The position numbers were made by a program, and so were the translations under genes. The notes under the pieces are model-generated. The model searched no databases and was not told where the DNA came from. It worked only from the letters and a program-made list of their open reading frames with translations. Shown in pieces: positions 26,496-38,089 of a stretch of DNA of 64,000 nt. The first letter of the stretch is position 1. Every line of letters begins with the position of its first letter. The stretch lies in assembly GCA_903832005.1 (NCBI GenBank), contig CAIKZO010000028.1, positions 124,001 to 188,000 of the forward strand. Reading direction: 5' to 3'. The DNA is from Enhydrobacter aerosaccus (lineage in GTDB: Bacteria; Pseudomonadota; Alphaproteobacteria; Reyranellales; Reyranellaceae).

Positions 26496-26521
26496 AAGTG
26501 TCTCAGGATTGGGAGACACTT
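26496..26521 (-). terminator. Hairpin overlapping the hybrid kinase stop codon
   Basis: A perfect 9-bp inverted repeat (AAGTGTCTC / GAGACACTT) with an 8-nt loop overlaps the kinase stop codon and is followed on the minus strand by TTTCG. It is a likely terminator for the kinase, although the T-run is short. Confidence 0.5.
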
Positions 26522-29500
26522 ACGTCGCGTTGAGATCGGCGACCACCCTTTGCCACTCGGCTTGCAGCGGCGGCAGGTCGGCGGTGCGGCCGGATTGCTC
26601 CAGGGCGGCGGCCAAGTCGCCGAGATGGACGGCGCCGGCGGCACGGGCGGCGCCCTTCAGCTTGTGGGCGAGCTCGATCACCTGCGCTGGGTCGGTCGAG
26701 GCTTCTTCGATCTCACCCAGCAGGCGCGCGCCGGCCTCGCGGAAGCGACCGAGCACGCGGGCGACGGCAGCGGCGTTGCCGCCGAACATCTGGCTCACCA
26801 CCGAGCGGTCGATCGCGGCACTGGGCGGCAGCGGCGGTGGCGCGGTCGCGGCGGCCGCAGTCGCCGCGGCGGCGATCGCGGTCCAGCGCGACACGGCCTC
26901 GCGCAGCCGGTCGAGCGTCAGCGGCTTGGTGAGGTAATCGTCCATGCCGGCCACCAGGCAGCGCTCGGCCTCGCCCTTCAGCGCGTTGGCGGTGAGCGCC
27001 ACGATCGGCGTGCGTGTCCGGTCTCCACGCACGACCTCCTCGGCGCGGATCTGGCGGGTCAGTTCGAAGCCGTCCATGTCGGGCATGTGGATGTCGGTCA
27101 GCACCAGCGCATAGGGCTTCGCGCGCCACAGGTTCAGGCCCTCGATGCCGTTGATCGCGGTGTCGAGCGCCACGCCCAGGATCTCGAACTGGCCGACCAG
27201 CACCTCGAGGTTCACGTCGTAGTCGTCGACCGCCAGCACCCGCAGGTCGCCCGTCTGCAAGGGCAACGGTTCGGGGGCCGGCGTGATGGCCGGCATTTCC
27301 GCCGCGCGCTTGACCCTCAGCGCGACCGAGAAGGTCGAGCCTTCGCCCGGCACGCTGTCCACGGAGACGGTGCCGTCCATCAGCTCCGCCAGGCGCCGAA
27401 CGATCGACAGGCCAAGGCCGGTGCCACCATAGCGGCGCGTCGTCGAACTGTCGGCCTGCGAGAACGGCAGGAAGAGTTTGGCCTGCTGGGCGGTGTCCAT
27501 GCCGATGCCGGTGTCGGTGATGGTGAGACCCAGGGTCACGGTATCGACGTCGGCGGCGAGCGCGCCCACGCGCACGGTGATGGCGCCGCGGTCGGTGAAC
27601 TTGGTGGCGTTGCCGATCAGGTTGAACAGGATCTGGCGGATGCGGGTCGCGTCGGCCAATAGCGCGTCGGGCGTGCCCTCCTCGACGAAGGCGCTGATCT
27701 GCAGACCCTTCTTCTGGACCTGCACCGATAGCGTCTCGGTCGTGCCCTCGATCAGGGCGCGCAGCGAGAACGGCGCCTCCTCGAGCTCCATGCGGCCGGC
27801 CTCGATCTTCGAGAAGTCGAGCACGTCGTCGATGATGCGCAACAACGATGCCGCCGAGCTGCGGATCGTGCCCACCATGCGGCGCTGCCGCTCGTTGAGC
27901 GGTTCGCGTTCGAGCAGTTCGGCGGTGCCGACGACGCCGTTCATTGGCGTGCGGATCTCGTGGCTCATGGTGGCGAGGAAGGTCGATTTGGCCTGGTTGG
28001 CGGCCTCGGCTTCGTCGCGCGCGTCTTGCGCCGCGTCGCGTTCCTTGCGCAGGTCGCGCTGGCGATGGCGCAGCTCGGTGATGTCGGTGAACAGCGACAC
28101 GCAGCCGCCCGACGCCGTGCGCGCCGCAGTGAGGCGTGTCCAGGCCTGCGGGCCGACCGGGAACTCGAGCGCGCCCTCGCCGCGGCGATGCTGCTTCACC
28201 ACCATGTCGGTGAGATTGGCGACCTCGACCTCCGGCACCGGCAGGTCGAGCAGCTCGTACTGGGCACGCATGGCGGCGCCTGCGGCGACCTCCAGGGTCG
28301 TGCCCGGACTCACGATCTCGGGAATGTTCCAGTTCACCGCGCGATAGGCGTCGTTGCACTGGATCAGGCGCTCGTCAGGGCCCCAGATCGCCACGCCGCT
28401 GGCCATGCTGCCCAGCGCGTCGTCGAGCAGGGTCTGCGCTGCTTCGGCCTTGGCGCGCGCCTGGTCGGCCACAGCCTGCTGCGCCTTGAGCTCGGTGATG
28501 TCGCGGTAGATTGCCAAGGTGCCGCCGTCGGGCAGCGGCTTGAAGTTGAATTCGATGAAGCGGCCCGAGGCCGTGCGGCGCTCGTAGCGCGTGCCATGGG
28601 GATCGAGCATGCGCAGCGCGCGCTCCTCGACCAGCGCCTCGACGTCGGCCTCGTTGGTGGTGGCGCCGAAATCGCCGCGTCGTACCTGGAAGCGCAGGAT
28701 GTCGCGGCCCGAAGCGCCGGGGAACGCGACCTCGGGCGTCAGACGCTGGAACTCCATGAGCTGGCGGTTGATGAAGCGCCAGCGGAAGTCCTGATCGAAC
28801 AGCATGACGCCGTCGATCATGTTGTCGAGCACGGTCTGCAAGGTGGTGCGCGTGTTTTCCGACTCGACGCGCGCGGCCTTGAGCCGCTCTTCCTGCGCCA
28901 CGATGGCGGTGATGTCGCGATGGATGGTGAGCACGCGGCCGTCGCTCAGCCTGCGATAGGTCACCTCGACGGTGCGGCCTGAGACGGCGCGGCGTCGCTC
29001 GGGCGGCTGGTCGGCCAGGGTGAAGCGGCCGACCCTGCCGGCCACCAGCTCCTCGACACCGCCGGACAATTCGTCGACCGGGCCGTAGTCGCCGCGCACC
29101 GCGCGATAGCGCACGATGTCGGCGAAGGTCGGCAGGGTCGTCAGCAGCTCGTCCGACATCTCGTGGATGCGCGCCATCGCCGGGTTCTGGTAGACCCAGC
29201 GGCCGTCGGCTTCGTAGAGCAGCAAGCCGTCGCTCATGTTGTCGAACACCGACTGCAGCACCGCGCGCGAGTCGGTGGCTTCCTTCTCGCGCTTCTTCAG
29301 CTCGGTGATGTCGATGATGGTGGTGACGGTGCCGCCGCTGCTGGTGCGGCGCGCCTGACCGCGCAGCCAGCGGCCTTCGCCGACGGGATATTCGGCCATG
29401 CCGCCGTTGCGATAGACATGCGTCGTGCCGGAGATGAAGGCTTCCGGGTCGCCGTTGGGCCGCATCGACGCCGGCGCGCGGTAGGCAACGGCGCGCAGCG

Positions 29501-30287
29501 CCTCGGTGAAATTCGAGCCCGGCGTCGTGGCTTCCGGCAGATCGGGCAGGCTCTTGGAATAGTTCAGGTTGGCCAGCACCAGCCTGTCGTCGGCGCCCCA
29601 CAGCACCACCGAGTGCGGCAGGTTCTCGATCGCCTCCTTCAACGTGTCGCGCGCCAGACGCGCGTCGGCTTCGGCCGCCTGATGGCGCTTGGCGAGGTCC
29701 TCGTTGGCGATGGAGAGTTCGATCTGCTGGCGTTGCGCGAGATAGTGCGGGCGATTCTGCAGCACCAGCGCCACGAGGTAGATCAGCGCGCCCGTGGCGA
29801 GTGCCCACGAGAGCGAGTCCTGTGCCTGCAGCAGTCCGGCCGCCAGGATCGACAGAGAAAAGCCCGCGAAAGCAAAATAGGAACGTGGCTCGTAGAGCCG
29901 GCCGGGCGCCAGCGCCGCGCACAGCAGCAGCGCGGTGGTGACCACCAGGCGCGGCTCGGCTGGCGGCAGCATGACCAGGAGCGCGCCGCCCACGCCGTAG
30001 GAGATGCCGGTCAGCGAGGCGTAAACGATGTACTTCACGCGCCAGGTTTCGATCGGCTGCGATTCGGGGTTTGCGCGATAGCCCAGCGACAGACGAATGA
30101 AGCCGGCCATTGCGAGCAGATGAACCGTGAGCGGACCCGCGATCATCCACCACGGCGCGAGGCCCCAGTAGATGAGGGCGAACACAAGCCACAGGGCCAG
30201 CGCCAGGACGCGCAACGCGACATTGCCGGTCATCAAGCGGTCGGTCAGGACACGTTCGACCCTGAGAGTTTCATTCATGGAACGCAT
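26520..30287 (-). CDS. Membrane hybrid histidine kinase with four PAS domains, receiver and HPt
   Basis: This 1255-residue sensor has six or seven N-terminal transmembrane helices (about 20-180), then a helical linker and four PAS domains, each opening with a motif such as [34 protein letters not shown] or [18 protein letters not shown]. HisKA has its phospho-His at about residue 776 in [13 protein letters not shown]. The ATPase domain shows [13 protein letters not shown] and [13 protein letters not shown] receiver has its Asp at about 1065 ([14 protein letters not shown]), and a C-terminal HPt has its His at about 1208 ([12 protein letters not shown]). All phosphorelay residues are present. 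The ATG at 30287 follows GAAGAG. The output regulator is not fused; the OmpR-type gene at 30923 is a candidate partner. Confidence 0.93.
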
Positions 30288-30511
30288 CGTCCGCTCTTCG
30301 TGTTTCCTGACAGTAACGCGAACCGGCGAAAATGTTTCGTTGGTTACGCGGGGGACGGGTATAGCGCGCAAAGTGGCCGCCAGCGCGCTCGCGTAACCCA
30401 CGAAACCAAATTGCAGTCATCTGTAATTCTCGGGAAACCCCTGCCGACTAGGTTCGCGTCATCGAGAAGCGGCCGCGCCGCAAACGGCCCCGCCGAAGTG
30501 GAGAATTCAAG

Positions 30512-30772
30512 ATGATGCAGATCCTGTATCGCCCGATGGTCAAGGAAGCTCTGGTCCTCGTTACCGCCGGTGTGGTCGCTACCCTGATCTGCAGCGGTGT
30601 CTATGCCGCCCCGCTGAGCGACGCCCAGCAGGCCGCTTCCGCGACCACGGCCGAGGCGCCGACCGATCACCAGCTCGCCCCAGTTCCGCAGGACCAGGCG
30701 CGCGAGCAGCTCCTGGCGGCAGTCCGGGGCCAGACGTCGATGACCGCTCCGACCTCGGCTAACAGTCTGTAA
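30512..30772 (+). CDS. Small secreted or membrane-anchored protein of unknown function
   Basis: This 86-residue protein has an N-terminal hydrophobic segment (ALVLVTAGVVATLICSGVYA) ending in an Ala-Pro boundary, which is a signal peptide or anchor. The remaining 55 residues are Ala/Gln/Thr-rich and probably disordered (LSDAQQAASATTAEAPTDHQLAPVPQ). GGAG lies about 10 nt before the ATG. It is divergent from the hybrid kinase and is followed by a strong terminator, so it is probably a single-gene transcript. The family is not recognised. Confidence 0.65.
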   Translation: MMQILYRPMVKEALVLVTAGVVATLICSGVYAAPLSDAQQAASATTAEAPTDHQLAPVPQDQAREQLLAAVRGQTSMTAPTSANSL

Positions 30773-30845
30773 ACGCTACAAAATCTTACTCTGCCGGACG
30801 CACACCTCCGGCGAGCGATGGCCGGGACTCCCATCACCGGCCGGA

Positions 30846-30878
30846 CAGCGGCGCCCCTCTCGGCGCCGCTGTTGTTTT
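30846..30878 (+). terminator. Strong intrinsic terminator
   Basis: A perfect 10-bp GC-rich stem (CAGCGGCGCC / GGCGCCGCTG) with a 6-nt loop is followed by TTGTTTT. It lies 74 nt after the small secreted protein and 45 nt before the response regulator gene, separating the two transcripts. Confidence 0.85.
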
Positions 30879-30922
30879 GGGGACCTTGAGGTTGCCGCTC
30901 CCGGACGGCAGGATGCCTGCAA

Positions 30923-31648
30923 ATGGCCGTTCGCCCCAAAGACACCCGCCCGCACGTCATTGTCGTCGAGGATGAGCAGTTTCAACGCGAAACGCTCACC
31001 GACTTCCTGGACGAGAACGGTTACCGCGCCTCCGGGGTCGATTCCGGGGCGGCGCTCCGCCGACTGGTCGAAAAAGACCCGCCGGCGCTGGTGCTGCTCG
31101 ATCTGCGCCTGCCGGGCGGCGACGACGGTTTTGCCCTCGCGCGCTTCCTGCGGGAGCGCAGCCGCAAGGTTGGCATCATCATGCTGACCGCCAGCGGCGA
31201 CACGGTCGACCAGGTCGTGGGCCTCGAGACCGGGGCCGACGACTACATCGCCAAGCCCTATGAGCCGCGCGCGCTGTTGGCCCGCATGAAGGCCGTCCTG
31301 CGCCGCGCCGGCGGTGCTGAAGCCGCGACCCCGGGCGAGCGGGTGCGGGTCGGTAAATGCATGCTCGACCTCGAGGCGCGGCGCATGACGGCGCTGTCGG
31401 GCGAGGAAGTTCCGCTGCGCGCGGGCGAATTCGAGCTGCTGAAGATTTTTGCCGAGAATCCGAACCGGCCGCTCAGCCGCGACTGGCTGCTGGAGACGAC
31501 CAGCCACCGCGAGATGGAAGCCTTCGACCGCGCCATCGACATCCGCGTCCTGCGGCTGCGGCGCAAGATCGAGGCCGATCCGGCGCACCCCACATCTATC
31601 CGTACCGTGCGCGGCGCGGGCTATATGTTCGTGCCCCCGGAAGACTAG
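30923..31648 (+). CDS. OmpR/PhoB-family response regulator
   Basis: The protein has 241 residues. The receiver domain (about 10-125) has the acidic pair in VIVVEDEQFQ, the phospho-Asp in LVLLDLRLPGGDDG, the conserved Thr region IIMLTASGD and the Lys in DYIAKPYEP. The C-terminal winged-helix DNA-binding domain (about 140-238) shows GEEVPLRAGEFELLKIFAENPNRPLSRDWLL and AIDIRVLRLRRKIEADPAHPTSIRTVRGAGYMF. It is an orphan regulator with no kinase in the same operon. The HPt-bearing hybrid kinase 0.6 kb away on the other strand may be its phosphodonor. A terminator separates it from the upstream gene, and the encapsulin operon begins 110 nt downstream. Confidence 0.93.
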   Translation: MAVRPKDTRPHVIVVEDEQFQRETLTDFLDENGYRASGVDSGAALRRLVEKDPPALVLLDLRLPGGDDGFALARFLRERSRKVGIIMLTASGDTVDQVVGLETGADDYIAKPYEPRALLARMKAVLRRAGGAEAATPGERVRVGKCMLDLEARRMTALSGEEVPLRAGEFELLKIFAENPNRPLSRDWLLETTSHREMEAFDRAIDIRVLRLRRKIEADPAHPTSIRTVRGAGYMFVPPED

Positions 31649-31678
31649 ACACACCAAAGGGTAATCTGGATTTCATCC

Positions 31679-31703
31679 GGAACTCGCTATAGTTCCCCAC
31701 GTT
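31679..31703 (+). promoter_or_regulatory. EcfG-type general stress promoter for the encapsulin operon
   Basis: GGAAC (31679-31683) is followed after exactly 16 nt by CGTT (31700-31703), matching the alphaproteobacterial EcfG consensus. Transcription would start near 31710, leaving a leader of about 50 nt before the EncFtn ATG. Position and spacing are right, but binding is inferred. Confidence 0.65.
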
Positions 31704-31758
31704 TAAGCGCTGAGTACGGCCGGACTCTGGGTTCGTCCGATTGCGGGAGGTTGGACGA

Positions 31759-32169
31759 ATGTCGAGCGAAGCGCTGCATGAAGATCCCAAGAAGATCGGT
31801 GACGATGTCATCGATCACCACCGCGCGATCTCTTCCCTGATGGAAGAACTCGAGGCGGTCGACTGGTACAACCAGCGCGCCAAGGCGACCAACGATCCGG
31901 AGCTGCGCGCGGTCCTCGAACACAATCGCGACGAAGAAAAAGAGCACGCCGCGATGGTGCTCGAGTGGATTCGCCGGCGCGATCCCAAGATGAACGAGCA
32001 CCTCAAGACCTATCTCTTCACCGAAGGCGCCGTCACGGCGATCGAAGCAGAGGCGACAGGCGGCGGTGCGGGTGGTAGCAACGGCGGGAACAAAGGTGGC
32101 GGAGCTCCGGCGAAAGACGGCAGCCTCGGCATCGGGAGTCTGCGCAAGGTCGGAGGACAGGACCAATGA
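31759..32169 (+). CDS. Encapsulated ferritin-like protein (EncFtn), encapsulin cargo
   Basis: This 136-residue ferroxidase is packaged inside the encapsulin shell. It has a ferritin-like two-helix fold that forms its di-iron site only on dimerisation into a ring, as in Rhodospirillum rubrum EncFtn. Metal-site residues are visible: Glu29, Glu30 and Glu32 in SLMEELEAVDW, Trp36 and Tyr37, and Glu60 with His63 in RDEEKEH. A flexible Gly/Asn-rich linker (about 102-119) leads to the C-terminal targeting peptide DGSLGIGSLRKVG, which docks on the shell interior. The ATG at 31759 has GGGAGG 8 nt upstream. The stop overlaps the shell gene start (ATGA). Confidence 0.95.
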   Translation: MSSEALHEDPKKIGDDVIDHHRAISSLMEELEAVDWYNQRAKATNDPELRAVLEHNRDEEKEHAAMVLEWIRRRDPKMNEHLKTYLFTEGAVTAIEAEATGGGAGGSNGGNKGGGAPAKDGSLGIGSLRKVGGQDQ

Positions 32170-32981
32170 ATCATCTATTTCGCGACCGCGCGCCGATTAC
32201 GCCGGCGGGCTGGGAAGAGATCGAGAAGGAAGCCAAGCGCACGCTCCGCGCGCTGCTGGCGGCGCGCCGCGTCGTCGACTTCAAGGGCCCGTTGGGCTGG
32301 GGCGCATCCGACGTCGAGCTCGGCCGCGCCGATCCGATTGCCTCGCCCGACAACGCCAAGCACGTGCAGGCGCGCCTGCGCCGCATCCAGCCGCTGGTCG
32401 AGCTGCGCATTCCGTTCGAGATGAGCCGCGCCGAACTCGACGCGATCGATCGCGGCGCGCGCGATCCCGACCTCGATCCGGTGACGGCGGCGGCGCGCGA
32501 GATCGCCATCGCCGAAGACCGCGCGATCTTCCACGGCTACAAGGCAGCGCAAATCACCGGCATCTGCGAGGCCAGCGCCAAGGTGGCCGTGCCGCTCGGC
32601 GCCAGCCACACCGACTATCCGCTGGCCGTGTCGTCGGCGCTCACCAAGCTGCGCGATGACGGCATCGAAGGTCCCTTCTCCGTGGTGCTGAACGACCAGC
32701 TCTACAAGGACCTCGCGGCGCGCACCGACGGCGGCTATCCGATCATCAGCCACGTCCAGCGCCTGATCGACGGCGAGATCATCTGGGCGCCGGGCATCGA
32801 CGGCGGCCTCGTGATTTCCCAGCGCGGCGGCGATTTCGAGCTGACGGTCGGCCAGGATTTCTCGATCGGCTATCTCGACCACACCAGCGAAGTGGTCAGG
32901 CTCTACATCGAGGAAAGCTTCACCTTCCTGGTCCTGACCGAACAGGCGGCGATCCCGCTGAGCGGCGGGGCGAAAAAATAG
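32166..32981 (+). CDS. Encapsulin nanocompartment shell protein (family 1)
   Basis: This 271-residue HK97-fold protein self-assembles into an icosahedral shell that stores iron oxidised by the EncFtn cargo. The N-terminal helix MNHLFRDRAPITPAGWEEIEKEAKRTLRALLAARRVVDF is the cargo-docking region of family 1 encapsulins, followed by KGPLGWGASDVELG, the E-loop region (VQARLRRIQPLVELRIPFEMSRAELDAIDRGARDPDLD), and the C-terminal AVDVRLY-like strand SEVVRLYIEESFTFLVLTEQAAI. The length fits a 60-subunit T=1 shell. It is translationally coupled to EncFtn. No other cargo with a targeting tail was found nearby. Confidence 0.95.
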   Translation: MNHLFRDRAPITPAGWEEIEKEAKRTLRALLAARRVVDFKGPLGWGASDVELGRADPIASPDNAKHVQARLRRIQPLVELRIPFEMSRAELDAIDRGARDPDLDPVTAAAREIAIAEDRAIFHGYKAAQITGICEASAKVAVPLGASHTDYPLAVSSALTKLRDDGIEGPFSVVLNDQLYKDLAARTDGGYPIISHVQRLIDGEIIWAPGIDGGLVISQRGGDFELTVGQDFSIGYLDHTSEVVRLYIEESFTFLVLTEQAAIPLSGGAKK

Positions 32982-33036
32982 ACCGAACGTCACGGTCGGA
33001 GAGAAGGGGTCGATTTTGGGCTAGTATCCCGCGCCC

Positions 33037-35016
33037 ATGACCCTTTCTCCCGACGCGGCCTTCCAGCAAGGGCTCGCGCTCCACCAGCAAGGCCGCCTCG
33101 ACCAAGCCGAAGCGCTCTATCGCGATGTGCTCGCGGCCCAGCCCCAGCATTTCGGCGCGCTGCATCTCACAGGTCTCCTGCATTACCAGCACGGGCGATT
33201 CGCGGCGGCGGTCGAGTGGATCGAGCGCGCCATCGCGGTCAACCCCGGCGTGCCGGATGCCCACTCCAACCTGGCGCTGGCATTGCTTGAGCTGAAGCGT
33301 CCGCAGGAGGCGCTGGCACGGATCGACCATGCGATGGGCCTGCGTCCCCCCTCGCCCGAGTCGCTGAACAATCGGGGCAATGCGCTGCAGGCCCTGCATC
33401 GGCCGGCAGAGGCGCTGGCCGAGTACGATCGCGCGCTGGGCCTGCGTCCGGATTACGCGCTCGCCCATAGCAATCGCGGCAACGCCTTGCGGACGCTCGG
33501 CCGGCCGGCCGAAGCGCTCACGGCCTACGATCGCGCCCTGCAGATCGTGCCCGGGTATCCGGACGCGCTCAACAATCGCGGCCGCACCCTGCGCGACTTC
33601 AAGCGCTTCGGCGAGGCGGCCCAAGTCTTCGCGCCGTTGCTGTCGATCGTGCCCCTACGGCCGCATGTGCCGGGCCTGTGGTTCGACAGCCGCCTGCAGA
33701 TCTGCGACTGGGCGGACTACGACGGGACGGTGGCGACGCTGAGCGCGGCCCTGGAGCGCGGCGAACCCGTCGACGTCCCGCAATCCGCGGCGAGCTATGT
33801 GCTCTCCCCCGCGGTGCTGCGCCGTTGCGCTGAAACCGAGGTGGCCGGATATGGGCCCGGTGCGGCGCGCCCGCCGGTGTCGCGGGCGCGCGACGGGAAG
33901 CGCCTTCATCTCGCCTACCTGTCGTACGACTTCCGCACGCACGCGGTGGCGGCGCTGATCGCAGGCTTGATCGAGAGGCACGATCGCGCACGGTTCGAGG
34001 TCAGCGCGATCTCCTACGGTCCCGACGACGGCGGCGCCTTGCGGCGGCGGCTGCAAGCGGGCTTCGACAGCTTCCACGACGTCAGCCGGCAGGACGATGC
34101 GGCGGTGGCCGCGCTGATGCGGAGTCGGGGCGTCGATATCGCGGTCGATCTCGCAGGCCTTACCGCCTTCCACCGGATCGGCATCCTCGCGGCGCGCGCG
34201 GCACCGGTTCAGGTGAACTATCTCGGCTTCCCGGGCACCAGCGGCGCGCCGTTCGTCGACTACATCATCGCCGATCCGCACACGATCCCCGCCGGTCAGG
34301 AGCGCTTCTACAGCGAGCAGGTCGTGCGACTGCCCGACACCTACCAGGCGAACGACGATGCGCGCGATCCCGCTGCGATGGCCTCGTCGCGAGGAAACCA
34401 TGGGCTGCCGGCCGAGGGCTTCGTCTTCTGCTCGTTCAACAACGCCTTCAAGATCCGCCCGCAGATGTTCGACATCTGGATGCGGCTCCTGCGACAGGTC
34501 GAGGGAAGCGTGCTGTGGCTGCTCGACGACAACAAGGAAGCGACGGCCATTCTCAAGCGCGAGGCGGAGCGCCGCGGTGTGCCCGCCGCGCGCCTGGTGT
34601 TCGCGCCGCGTGAGGCGATGGATGCGCACGTCGCGCGCCAGCGGCACGCCGACCTGTTCCTCGACACCTTTCCCTACAACGCCCACACGACCGGCAGCGA
34701 CGCGCTCTGGGTCGGCTTGCCGCTGCTGACCCTGGCCGGCCAGACCTTCGCCTCGCGTGTCGCGACGGGTCTCCTTCATGCGGCGGGCGTGCCGGAGCTG
34801 GTGGCGCACACGGCCGCCGACTACGAGGCTCTTGCGCTCGCACTCGCACGCGATCCGGCGCGCCTCGCGGCAGTGAAGGACAAATTGAACGACGTTCGCC
34901 AAAGCAGGCTGTTCGATACGCGCCGTTTCTGTCGGAACATCGAAAGCGCCTACGAGACGATGCAGGCTCGACACCTGCGGGGCGAAGCGCCCGCCGCCTT
35001 CGACGTCGTGGCGTAG
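33037..35016 (+). CDS. TPR protein with O-GlcNAc-transferase-like (GT41) catalytic domain, copy 1
   Basis: The protein has 659 residues. About residues 5-200 form five or six tetratricopeptide repeats with A-xx-H/L-xx-GR periodicity (GRLDQAEALYRDVLAAQP, GRPAEALTAYDRALQIVPGYPDALNNRG). The rest matches the SPINDLY/OGT C-terminal domain: [93 protein letters not shown] and TFPYNAHTTGSDALWVGLPLLTLAGQTFASRV. Bacterial members transfer a sugar to protein targets, whose identity is unknown here. It lies 55 nt after encapsulin and 4 nt before the convergent holA. A paralogue follows at 36095. Confidence 0.92.
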   Translation: MTLSPDAAFQQGLALHQQGRLDQAEALYRDVLAAQPQHFGALHLTGLLHYQHGRFAAAVEWIERAIAVNPGVPDAHSNLALALLELKRPQEALARIDHAMGLRPPSPESLNNRGNALQALHRPAEALAEYDRALGLRPDYALAHSNRGNALRTLGRPAEALTAYDRALQIVPGYPDALNNRGRTLRDFKRFGEAAQVFAPLLSIVPLRPHVPGLWFDSRLQICDWADYDGTVATLSAALERGEPVDVPQSAASYVLSPAVLRRCAETEVAGYGPGAARPPVSRARDGKRLHLAYLSYDFRTHAVAALIAGLIERHDRARFEVSAISYGPDDGGALRRRLQAGFDSFHDVSRQDDAAVAALMRSRGVDIAVDLAGLTAFHRIGILAARAAPVQVNYLGFPGTSGAPFVDYIIADPHTIPAGQERFYSEQVVRLPDTYQANDDARDPAAMASSRGNHGLPAEGFVFCSFNNAFKIRPQMFDIWMRLLRQVEGSVLWLLDDNKEATAILKREAERRGVPAARLVFAPREAMDAHVARQRHADLFLDTFPYNAHTTGSDALWVGLPLLTLAGQTFASRVATGLLHAAGVPELVAHTAADYEALALALARDPARLAAVKDKLNDVRQSRLFDTRRFCRNIESAYETMQARHLRGEAPAAFDVVA

Positions 35017-36094: not shown

Positions 36095-38089
36095 ATGAAC
36101 GCAATTGAGAAAGCCAAGAGGCTGGTCGAGAAGGGCAACGGCTTGATCGGCTCCGGCAGGTTTCCGGCGGCGCTGGTGACGTTCGAAGAAGCCCTGCGTC
36201 TGCTTCCCGGCCATCCTGGAATACTCAACAATCTGGGCGTCGTGCTGGAGAAGCTGGGCCGGCTTGAGGACGCCCTCGACAAGTACGAGATGGTACGTCG
36301 CCTTACGCCACCGCATCCCGGCCTGCTCAACAATTGCGCTGTGGTCCTGCGAAAGCTCGACCGTCCGGCCGAAGCGCTGGAACGGTTCGACCAGGCCCTG
36401 AAGCTCAAGCCCGACTACGCCGAGGCGCTGGCCAATCGCGGCAAGCTTCTCGTAGAGCAGCTCGATCGTCCGGCCGACGGGCTGGCCGGCCTCGACCGTT
36501 CCCTGCAATACCGTCCCGACCATGCCGACACATGGTCGAACAGGGCGGTGGCTCTTGCCAGGCTCGATCGACCGGCCGAAGCCCTCGCGAGTAACGACCG
36601 CGCGCTGGCCCTCGATCCCCGCCACCCCGACGCATTGCATAATCGCGCAGGCGTGCTGGAGCAGATGAAGCGTTTCGAGGATGCCGCGCGCGCCTGGGAG
36701 CGCGTGCTCGAGGTCACTCCGGATCAGCCCTACATCCGCGGCCGCCTGCTGCACGCCCGCCTGCAGTGCTGCGAGTGGCGCGACTACGATGCGCTGCACG
36801 CGCGTATCGAAGAAGGCGTCGCGCGCGGCGAGAAAGAGGACGCGCCCTGGCACATGTCGGTGCATTGCCGCTCGCCCGAGCTGATGCTGCGCTGTGCGGA
36901 GATCTTCAACGCCGATCATCAGCCCCCAATCGCGACACCGCTGTGGAGCGGCCAGCCCTACGATCATGATCGTCTTCGCATCGCGTGGCTGTCGGGCGGC
37001 CTCGGCAACAACGTCGAGGCGCAAACGATTGTCGGCTTGATCGAACGGCACGATCGGGCTCGCTTCGAGACCTTCGGCATTTCGGTCGGCCGCAACGATG
37101 CCAGTTCCATGCGGGCGCGGGTTGAAGCGGCGTTCGACCACTTCGTCGATGCGCGTGACTGGACCGATCGACGGACCGCGCAATGGCTGCGCGACCAGGA
37201 GATCGACATCCTCATCGTCGTCGCGCCTTACATGACCGATTCGCGACTCGGTATTCTGGCGCACCGGCCGGTGCCGCTGCAGATGAACTGGGGCTTTCTG
37301 GGGTCGGTCGGCGCCGACTATGTCGACTACATGCTCACCGACCGTCACGTCGTGCCGCCGGAACACGAAGGCCTGTACAGAGAGAAGGCGCTTCGCCCGG
37401 CCAAGACGATGATGTCGTTCTACGCGCCGCCGGAGATCGCCGGGCCGCTGCCGTCGCGTGGGTCGCTCGGCCTGCCGGAGAACGGCTTCGTCTTTTGTTG
37501 CTTCAACAACAACTACAAGATCCAGCCCGATATCTTTCCGCATTGGATGGGCCTGCTGCGGGATGTGGAAGGAAGCGTGCTGTGGCTGCGCGATGCCAAT
37601 GCTGCCGCAAGCGCCAACCTGCGGGCCGAAGCGGTGCGCCACGGCATCGCCGCCGACCGTCTCGTGTTCGCCCCCTTCGCCGCAACCTACGACGAGTATC
37701 TGAAACGCTTTCGCGTTGCCGATCTCTTCGTCGACTGCCCGCCCTACAACGCGCACACCACGGCCTGCGAGGCGCTGTGGGCTGGATTGCCGTTGGTCAC
37801 CTGTGGCGGCGAGACGGCCGTGTCGCGCGTGGCCGGTGGCCTCTTGCACGCCGCCGGACTAGCCGAGCTCGTGGTCGACAATCTTGCCGACTACGACCGG
37901 CTGGTTCGCGCATTGGTGGCAACACCGCAGCGACTGGCCGACATACGCGCCGCTCTCGACCGTGCCCGCATCGACCGGACGCTGTTGAATCCCGAGGATT
38001 TTTGCCGCCGGCTCGAAGCCACCTTCATCGCGATGCACGAGCGCCAGCGCAAAGGACTGCCGCCCGCCGCCATCGGTATGCCGGCCTAG
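36095..38089 (+). CDS. TPR protein with O-GlcNAc-transferase-like (GT41) domain, copy 2
   Basis: This 664-residue paralogue of the protein at 33037-35016 has the same plan. TPR units cover about residues 5-215 ([73 protein letters not shown]), then comes a GT41 domain with [66 protein letters not shown] and [47 protein letters not shown]. The N-lobe motif differs from copy 1 (LSGGLGNN in place of LSYDFRTH), so substrate use may differ. The ATG is 30 nt from the divergent holA start, so its promoter must lie partly within holA. Its stop overlaps the leuS stop on the other strand. Confidence 0.92.

Follow-up and report, generated by a model that had tools for sequence, protein, structure and literature searches.

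The EncFtn protein of Rhodospirillum rubrum (Rru_A0973; PDB 5da5 and 33bf) and its encapsulin shell (9ry4) represent the same two protein families as a gene pair located in the 64,000-nucleotide stretch of DNA analysed here (the window). In R. rubrum, residues Glu32, Glu62, His65 and Tyr39 belong to the ferroxidase centre (PMC5012862; this and other papers are cited from excerpts of their text). The R. rubrum protein and the window cargo have the same ferroxidase and secondary-site glutamates and a GSLGIGSL tail, and they differ in a glycine-rich linker that is slightly longer in the window cargo. Chains 33bf and 9ry4 share PDB entries, and residues of 33bf agree with those of 5da5 where the two are aligned; we infer that both 33bf and 9ry4 come from R. 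rubrum. An EncFtn protein with a GSLGIGSLR tail likewise accompanies a family 1 shell in Haliangium ochraceum (PDB 7oe2, 7odw), which is not an alphaproteobacterium. This encapsulin differs from the pair described here in having its host outside Alphaproteobacteria, the class to which EcfG is exclusive (PMC3892343).

Ferritin-type encapsulins mostly occur in hosts that have Bfr, Ftn or Dps as well, and a role in stress has been proposed for these compartments; in Thermotoga maritima and Myxococcus xanthus, encapsulin expression goes up under oxidative stress (PMC11202242). The EcfG/PhyR/NepR regulons of Sphingopyxis granuli and Sphingomonas melonis carry a GGAAC or GCAAC -35 box and a CGTT -10 box with the same spacing as the element examined below (PMC7083833, PMC6599016). 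In Sphingopyxis, GGAAC-N16-CGTT is the general stress (EcfG) promoter, and GGAAC and GCAAC are the two most frequent -35 boxes (PMC7083833), whereas the Sphingomonas general stress promoter is given as GGAAC-N17-20-GTT (PMC6599016). A search of the main text of openly available papers returned no paper that has 'encapsulin' together with 'EcfG'. The excerpts covered by this search draw no link between encapsulin or linocin and the general stress response or extracytoplasmic function, and name no sigma factor for any encapsulin operon; in those of PMC7762939, the subjects are treated separately.

The encapsulin gene pair

The first-pass annotation of the window proposed overlapping genes for an EncFtn cargo and a 271-residue shell, forming a system of the type described in R. 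rubrum, and profile searches with the encoded proteins agree on both points (Table 1). The cargo scores 142 bits against TIGR04535 (cut-off 125) and 134 bits against PF22277, the EncFtn-like family (cut-off 27), and its best PDB chain is 33bf (E 4.2e-45), followed by 5da5, whose molecule name is Rru_A0973. The shell scores 319 bits against NF041155, the model for family 1 encapsulin shells (cut-off 100), and 308 bits against PF04454 (cut-off 24.3), with 9ry4 as its best PDB chain (E 5.4e-94). Chance can be excluded because these family scores lie far above the curated cut-offs. In the open reading frames of the window, the two genes overlap by 4 nucleotides (ATGA), and the cargo gene thus shares an operon with the shell gene, as is characteristic of family 1 encapsulins. 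The ATG at 31759 was taken as the start of the cargo, rather than an in-frame TTG at 31741, because homologues from the genus align from the ATG. The source genome has a single PF04454 gene. Judged by its protein families, the compartment is of the known R. rubrum kind, and homology suggests that it would assemble and load iron to serve as a complete iron-storage compartment.

Table 1. Features of the encapsulin locus, in window coordinates
Feature	Position	Strand	Details
OmpR-type response regulator; probably not a functional part	30923..31648	+	PF00072, PF00486
Predicted EcfG-type promoter	31679..31703	+	-35 GGAAC 31679-31683, 16-nt spacer, -10 CGTT 31700-31703
55 nt from CGTT to ATG	31704..31758	+	GGAGG ribosome-binding-type sequence (31746-31750)
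EncFtn cargo, 136 aa, stop codon included in range	31759..32169	+	PF22277, TIGR04535, PDB 33bf; targeting peptide at the C-terminus (around SLGIGSLR)
Family 1 encapsulin shell protein, 271 aa	32166..32981	+	PF04454, NF041155, PDB 9ry4

Alignment of the cargo with 5da5 and 33bf, at an offset of two residues, equates its Glu30, Trp36, Tyr37, Glu60 and His63 with Glu32, Trp38, Tyr39, Glu62 and His65 of these chains. This supports the earlier assignment of intact ferroxidase residues, as does a comparison of 47 distinct homologues (those that include the start; one is from another family and one is a second copy). E29, E30, E32, W36 and Y37 are invariant in this set, and E59, E60, E62 and H63 are found in 46 of the 47. 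The remaining homologue has a gap at these positions and is presumably L134, which stops at a contig end.

The C-terminal targeting peptide that had also been proposed is present in the window cargo. The sequence LGIGSL occurs within the last 45 residues of every one of the 42 distinct cargos that are 118 aa or longer, so that the loss of the tail in close homologues, which had been named beforehand as evidence against the assignment, was not seen among full-length proteins. Five shorter cargos lack LGIGSL: L132 (106 aa), L184 (82 aa), L134 (cut by the contig end), L165/L205 (the second copy) and L133 (from another family). The second copy resides in genome G063, lacks a shell and an EcfG-type site as well as the targeting peptide, and exists alongside a normal pair elsewhere in that genome. 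For L132, in genome G029, no shell was found and holA follows 69 nucleotides downstream, with the EcfG-type site kept; this is perhaps a decaying copy.

Genomic place and neighbours

The cargo family is present in 46 of 61 genomes of the genus (26 of 37, plus 20 of 24 further ones), and its neighbourhood was mapped in 40 of 47 cargo-bearing genomes (these 46 and G053, from another family). The shell gene lies directly 3' of the cargo gene in most loci of the genus, the exceptions being L132, L133, L134 and L205. The housekeeping neighbours of the pair are parA, parB, holA and leuS. Among the 40 mapped genomes, 31 have holA no more than 4 kb downstream of the pair, and 25 have parB no more than 6.5 kb upstream of it, with several contigs ending too early; in the window parB is 7 kb away. 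Because this holA/parB neighbourhood is kept across the mapped genomes, the pair is an old resident rather than a recent insertion. The initial description of the pair as 'inserted' into a conserved neighbourhood is therefore not upheld, and the variable element is instead the response regulator upstream. Two relatives (L039, and L297, which is of the same family) have the pair elsewhere, outside the usual neighbourhood.

Several other genes in the window surround the pair. Two genes that each combine TPR with glycosyltransferase-41 (OGT-like) domains, at 33037-35016 and 36104-38089, flank holA; of the 46 relative loci that were mapped, 6 show a similar gene, on either strand. At 26520-30401, on the strand opposite to the OmpR-type regulator, lies the gene for a hybrid histidine kinase that joins several PAS_7 domains to a receiver and an Hpt domain; this kinase is possibly the partner of the regulator.

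The upstream element

An element of the form GGAAC-N16-CGTT starts 30 nucleotides after the stop codon of the response regulator. It was first spotted by eye and then tested in the same set of sequences, where G[G/C]AAC-N15-18-CGTT is present in 45 of 47 distinct 200-nucleotide upstream regions, compared with a mean of 0.53 and a maximum of 3 in 200 runs with shuffled sequences, which leave the relatedness of the regions in place. The two regions without the element belong to the second copy that has no shell (L165) and to G053. With these two dropped, G[G/C]AAC-N16/17-CGTT is found in 45 of 45 distinct orthologous upstream regions of the genus (shuffle mean 0.47), a set that takes in the operons with shortened cargos (L132, L184) and the truncated L134. 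The spacer is 16 nucleotides long in 40 of these regions and 17 in 5, and the -35 box is GGAAC in 39 and GCAAC in 6. Since the element is conserved throughout, has fixed spacing and matches the consensus, we interpret it as a predicted EcfG-type promoter.

The boxes persist although CGTT stands at different distances from the ATG (8-9, 35-56 or 75-78 nucleotides). CGTT lies 8-9 nucleotides before the ATG in 21 of the 45 regions and farther away in the other 24. In the short-leader species, the predicted transcription start would coincide with the start codon, which suggests a leaderless mRNA; the group to which the window belongs has a longer leader that contains GGAGG. Several short-leader regions (for example, L110, L113, L117, L123 and L175) have a second G[G/C]AAC-N16/17-CGTT located 90-95 nucleotides before the ATG. 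A block resembling GGCCGGACT..GTTCGTCCG is found repeatedly between the promoter and the ribosome-binding site, both in the window (31718-31739) and in its long-leader relatives. No consensus RNA structure was obtained for the leader by alifold analysis of 23 long-leader sequences, the window has no Rfam match at gathering score, and a sigma-70 scan of 30300-33200 yielded no promoter-like site.

Within the same loci, the element is present in 36 of 38 cargo upstream regions versus 0 of 236 upstream regions of 13 other genes, a comparison set in which operon-internal regions, for example those before parB and the shell gene, were counted. Twelve of the 47 regions additionally match on the reverse strand, perhaps because of a divergent promoter. 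The exact N16 pattern occurs 79 times across the source genome versus 71 times for a reversed control. Given this lack of enrichment, the single site in the window means little alone, and it is the conservation that carries the case.

To compare the element beyond the genus, named loci were drawn as the best 80 of more than 559 and grouped by record title: 10 from the genus (L029, titled Rhizobiales, was assigned here by its neighbourhood), 11 from other Alphaproteobacteria and 58 from outside the class, with one (L064, 'Proteobacteria') left out. The strict site within 200 nucleotides is present in 10 of 10, 5 of 11 and 0 of 58 of these best-ranked loci, respectively, and the difference between the latter two groups is significant (Fisher 4e-5). 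The second group counts L039, which bears the title Reyranella but lacks the genus neighbourhood, and becomes 4 of 10 without it. Widening the search to 250 nucleotides adds one locus from outside the class (L095), with a GCAAC match at -249. An 'extended' -10 pattern gives 9 of 11 versus 0 of 58, but this pattern was picked post hoc and the strict count is preferred.

A second sample covered the class outside the genus, using 59 of 73 genomes with a match (four of the genus and ten with weak matches only were dropped) and seeking the shell within fetched flanks of about 1.5 kb; it overlaps the first sample at L044 and L042 (G238 and G410). Of these 59 EncFtn loci, 10 have the strict site. A shell gene was detected next to 10 of the 59, and 4 of those carry the site, whereas the six shell-bearing loci without it belong to three genera. 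The EcfG-type control predicted from these sites is therefore found beyond the genus, yet it is not universal in the class. The other 49 EncFtn-like loci (within L027 and L238-L296) have no shell in the fetched flanks; their proteins are 93-109 aa long and lack GIGSL in the last 22 residues, and 6 of the 49 have the strict EcfG-type site. A search centred on G238 took in seven genomes, and plasmid records gave two weak matches.

Other ferritin genes of the genus were examined as well. No CGTT site was found within 250 nucleotides upstream of 19 ferritin-domain loci in eight genomes (judged from their sequences, eight are bacterioferritins, ten are of the Dps type and one is neither), and two bacterioferritin-type loci have GGAAC-N16-TGTT at -187 and -169. 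A single PF00210 gene is seen in the source genome, which is 90% complete, and it belongs to the bacterioferritin type. The Dps-type genes of the genus thus lack the site, unlike the DNA-binding ferritin-like proteins that are included in the Sphingomonas EcfG regulon (PMC6599016). Simplified binding patterns of RirA, Irr, Fur, OxyR, IscR and CtrA each matched 0 of the 45 cargo upstream regions, and control through sites of these simplified forms was rejected.

The source genome also encodes candidate general stress components. Genes for PhyR (NF006623, 297 bits, cut-off 240), two ECF sigma factors, a weak NepR candidate and an HWE-type histidine kinase lie side by side on contig C122. Both sigma genes are recognised by the general ECF model but by no EcfG-specific one, the NepR candidate is at the cut-off (24.6 or 25.5 bits, 26 with its neighbours, versus 25.7), and the kinase is nearest to PhyK at 225 bits, under the cut-off of 750. 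PhyR was used as the marker of the system because NepR is a weak one: the NepR model matched 28 of 62 genomes and the PhyR model 50 of 63, although the latter model also matches ECF sigma genes. As a positive control, a small glycine-zipper gene that adjoins phyR was examined: the element is present in all 30 distinct upstream regions examined for this gene and its best relatives in the genus, out of a larger number of matches. Most of these relatives are not known to adjoin phyR. No element was found before nepR-ecfG in L266; in Sphingopyxis this operon has such a site (PMC7083833).

Alternative readings and the predicted role in stress

We considered it exceedingly improbable that the shell is a phage HK97 capsid protein or a bacteriocin. 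Encapsulins share the HK97 fold and were formerly annotated as bacteriocins (PF04454, Linocin_M18; PMC8346489), and membership of an HK97 capsid family had been named at the outset as a result that would contradict the encapsulin assignment. The best PHROG match, however, has an E value of 0.012, against 2e-95 for encap_f1, and the gene sits beside a ferritin cargo with a targeting peptide and among housekeeping genes. It is also very unlikely that the OmpR-type regulator, perhaps with the nearby hybrid kinase, runs the encapsulin as a dedicated two-component system. In favour of this reading, the regulator is encoded directly upstream in the same direction, 110 nucleotides from the cargo gene in the window, and directly upstream in 12 of the 40 mapped genomes altogether. 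It was, however, not seen upstream in the other 28 (some contigs end too early), and in G014, G028, G078 and G081 the regulator is found 6-11 kb downstream of the pair. In L188, L192, L195 and L200, the regulator occupies its usual position but the pair is missing there (L200 is from G005, whose pair is located elsewhere), and in the window an EcfG-type site separates the regulator from the cargo gene. Control by the neighbouring regulator was rejected because it is upstream in a minority of genomes and stands without the pair in four loci; it seems to be an adjacent gene and not a partner of the encapsulin.

Unlikely, in our view, is a plain iron-storage encapsulin, either iron-regulated or constitutive, whose upstream motif is incidental or serves a different ECF sigma factor. 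Many ECF sigma factors have AAC-type -35 boxes in common, which agrees with recognition by a different sigma factor. The absence of genome-wide enrichment of the exact pattern, the part of the class that lacks the site and the lack of a site before nepR-ecfG in the source genome point the same way. In contrast, an incidental motif would hardly be kept in 45 of 45 regions with fixed spacing, be absent from all 236 neighbouring upstream regions and recur before all 30 examined relatives of the gene adjoining phyR, and no RirA, Irr or Fur pattern accompanies it.

It is highly probable, in our assessment, that the two genes form a family 1 encapsulin packaging EncFtn, with its operon predicted to be under an EcfG general stress promoter and deployed in stress as an iron sink. 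The conserved upstream DNA suggests that the general stress response, and not an iron sensor, turns the operon on. Under general stress, PhyR would draw NepR off EcfG, and RNA polymerase carrying EcfG would read the operon from about position 31710. Cargo and shell would be co-translated, and EncFtn decamers would bind the shell interior via their tails and oxidise Fe2+, such that the ferric mineral would be held inside the shell. Within the genus, the compartment may be an iron sink that is brought into play by stress, distinct from the genes of the bacterioferritin and Dps types, which have no CGTT site.

The compartment itself is of a known kind, and the new point is its control, which likely places it in the EcfG general stress response. 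The first-pass annotation had already named control as a new point but gave no mechanism, for which an EcfG-type promoter is now indicated. We lean toward the wider proposal that EncFtn encapsulins across a broad range of Alphaproteobacteria are dedicated EcfG effectors serving as a stress-deployed iron sink, made from a leaderless mRNA in many species and set apart by their promoter from bacterioferritin-type and Dps-type genes in the same genomes that are run otherwise. These findings bear on whether ferritin-type encapsulins serve mainly in iron storage or mainly in stress defence. With a conserved general stress promoter predicted before the encapsulin operon but lacking from the other ferritin genes examined in the genus, one gene deletion would be enough to put this question to the test.
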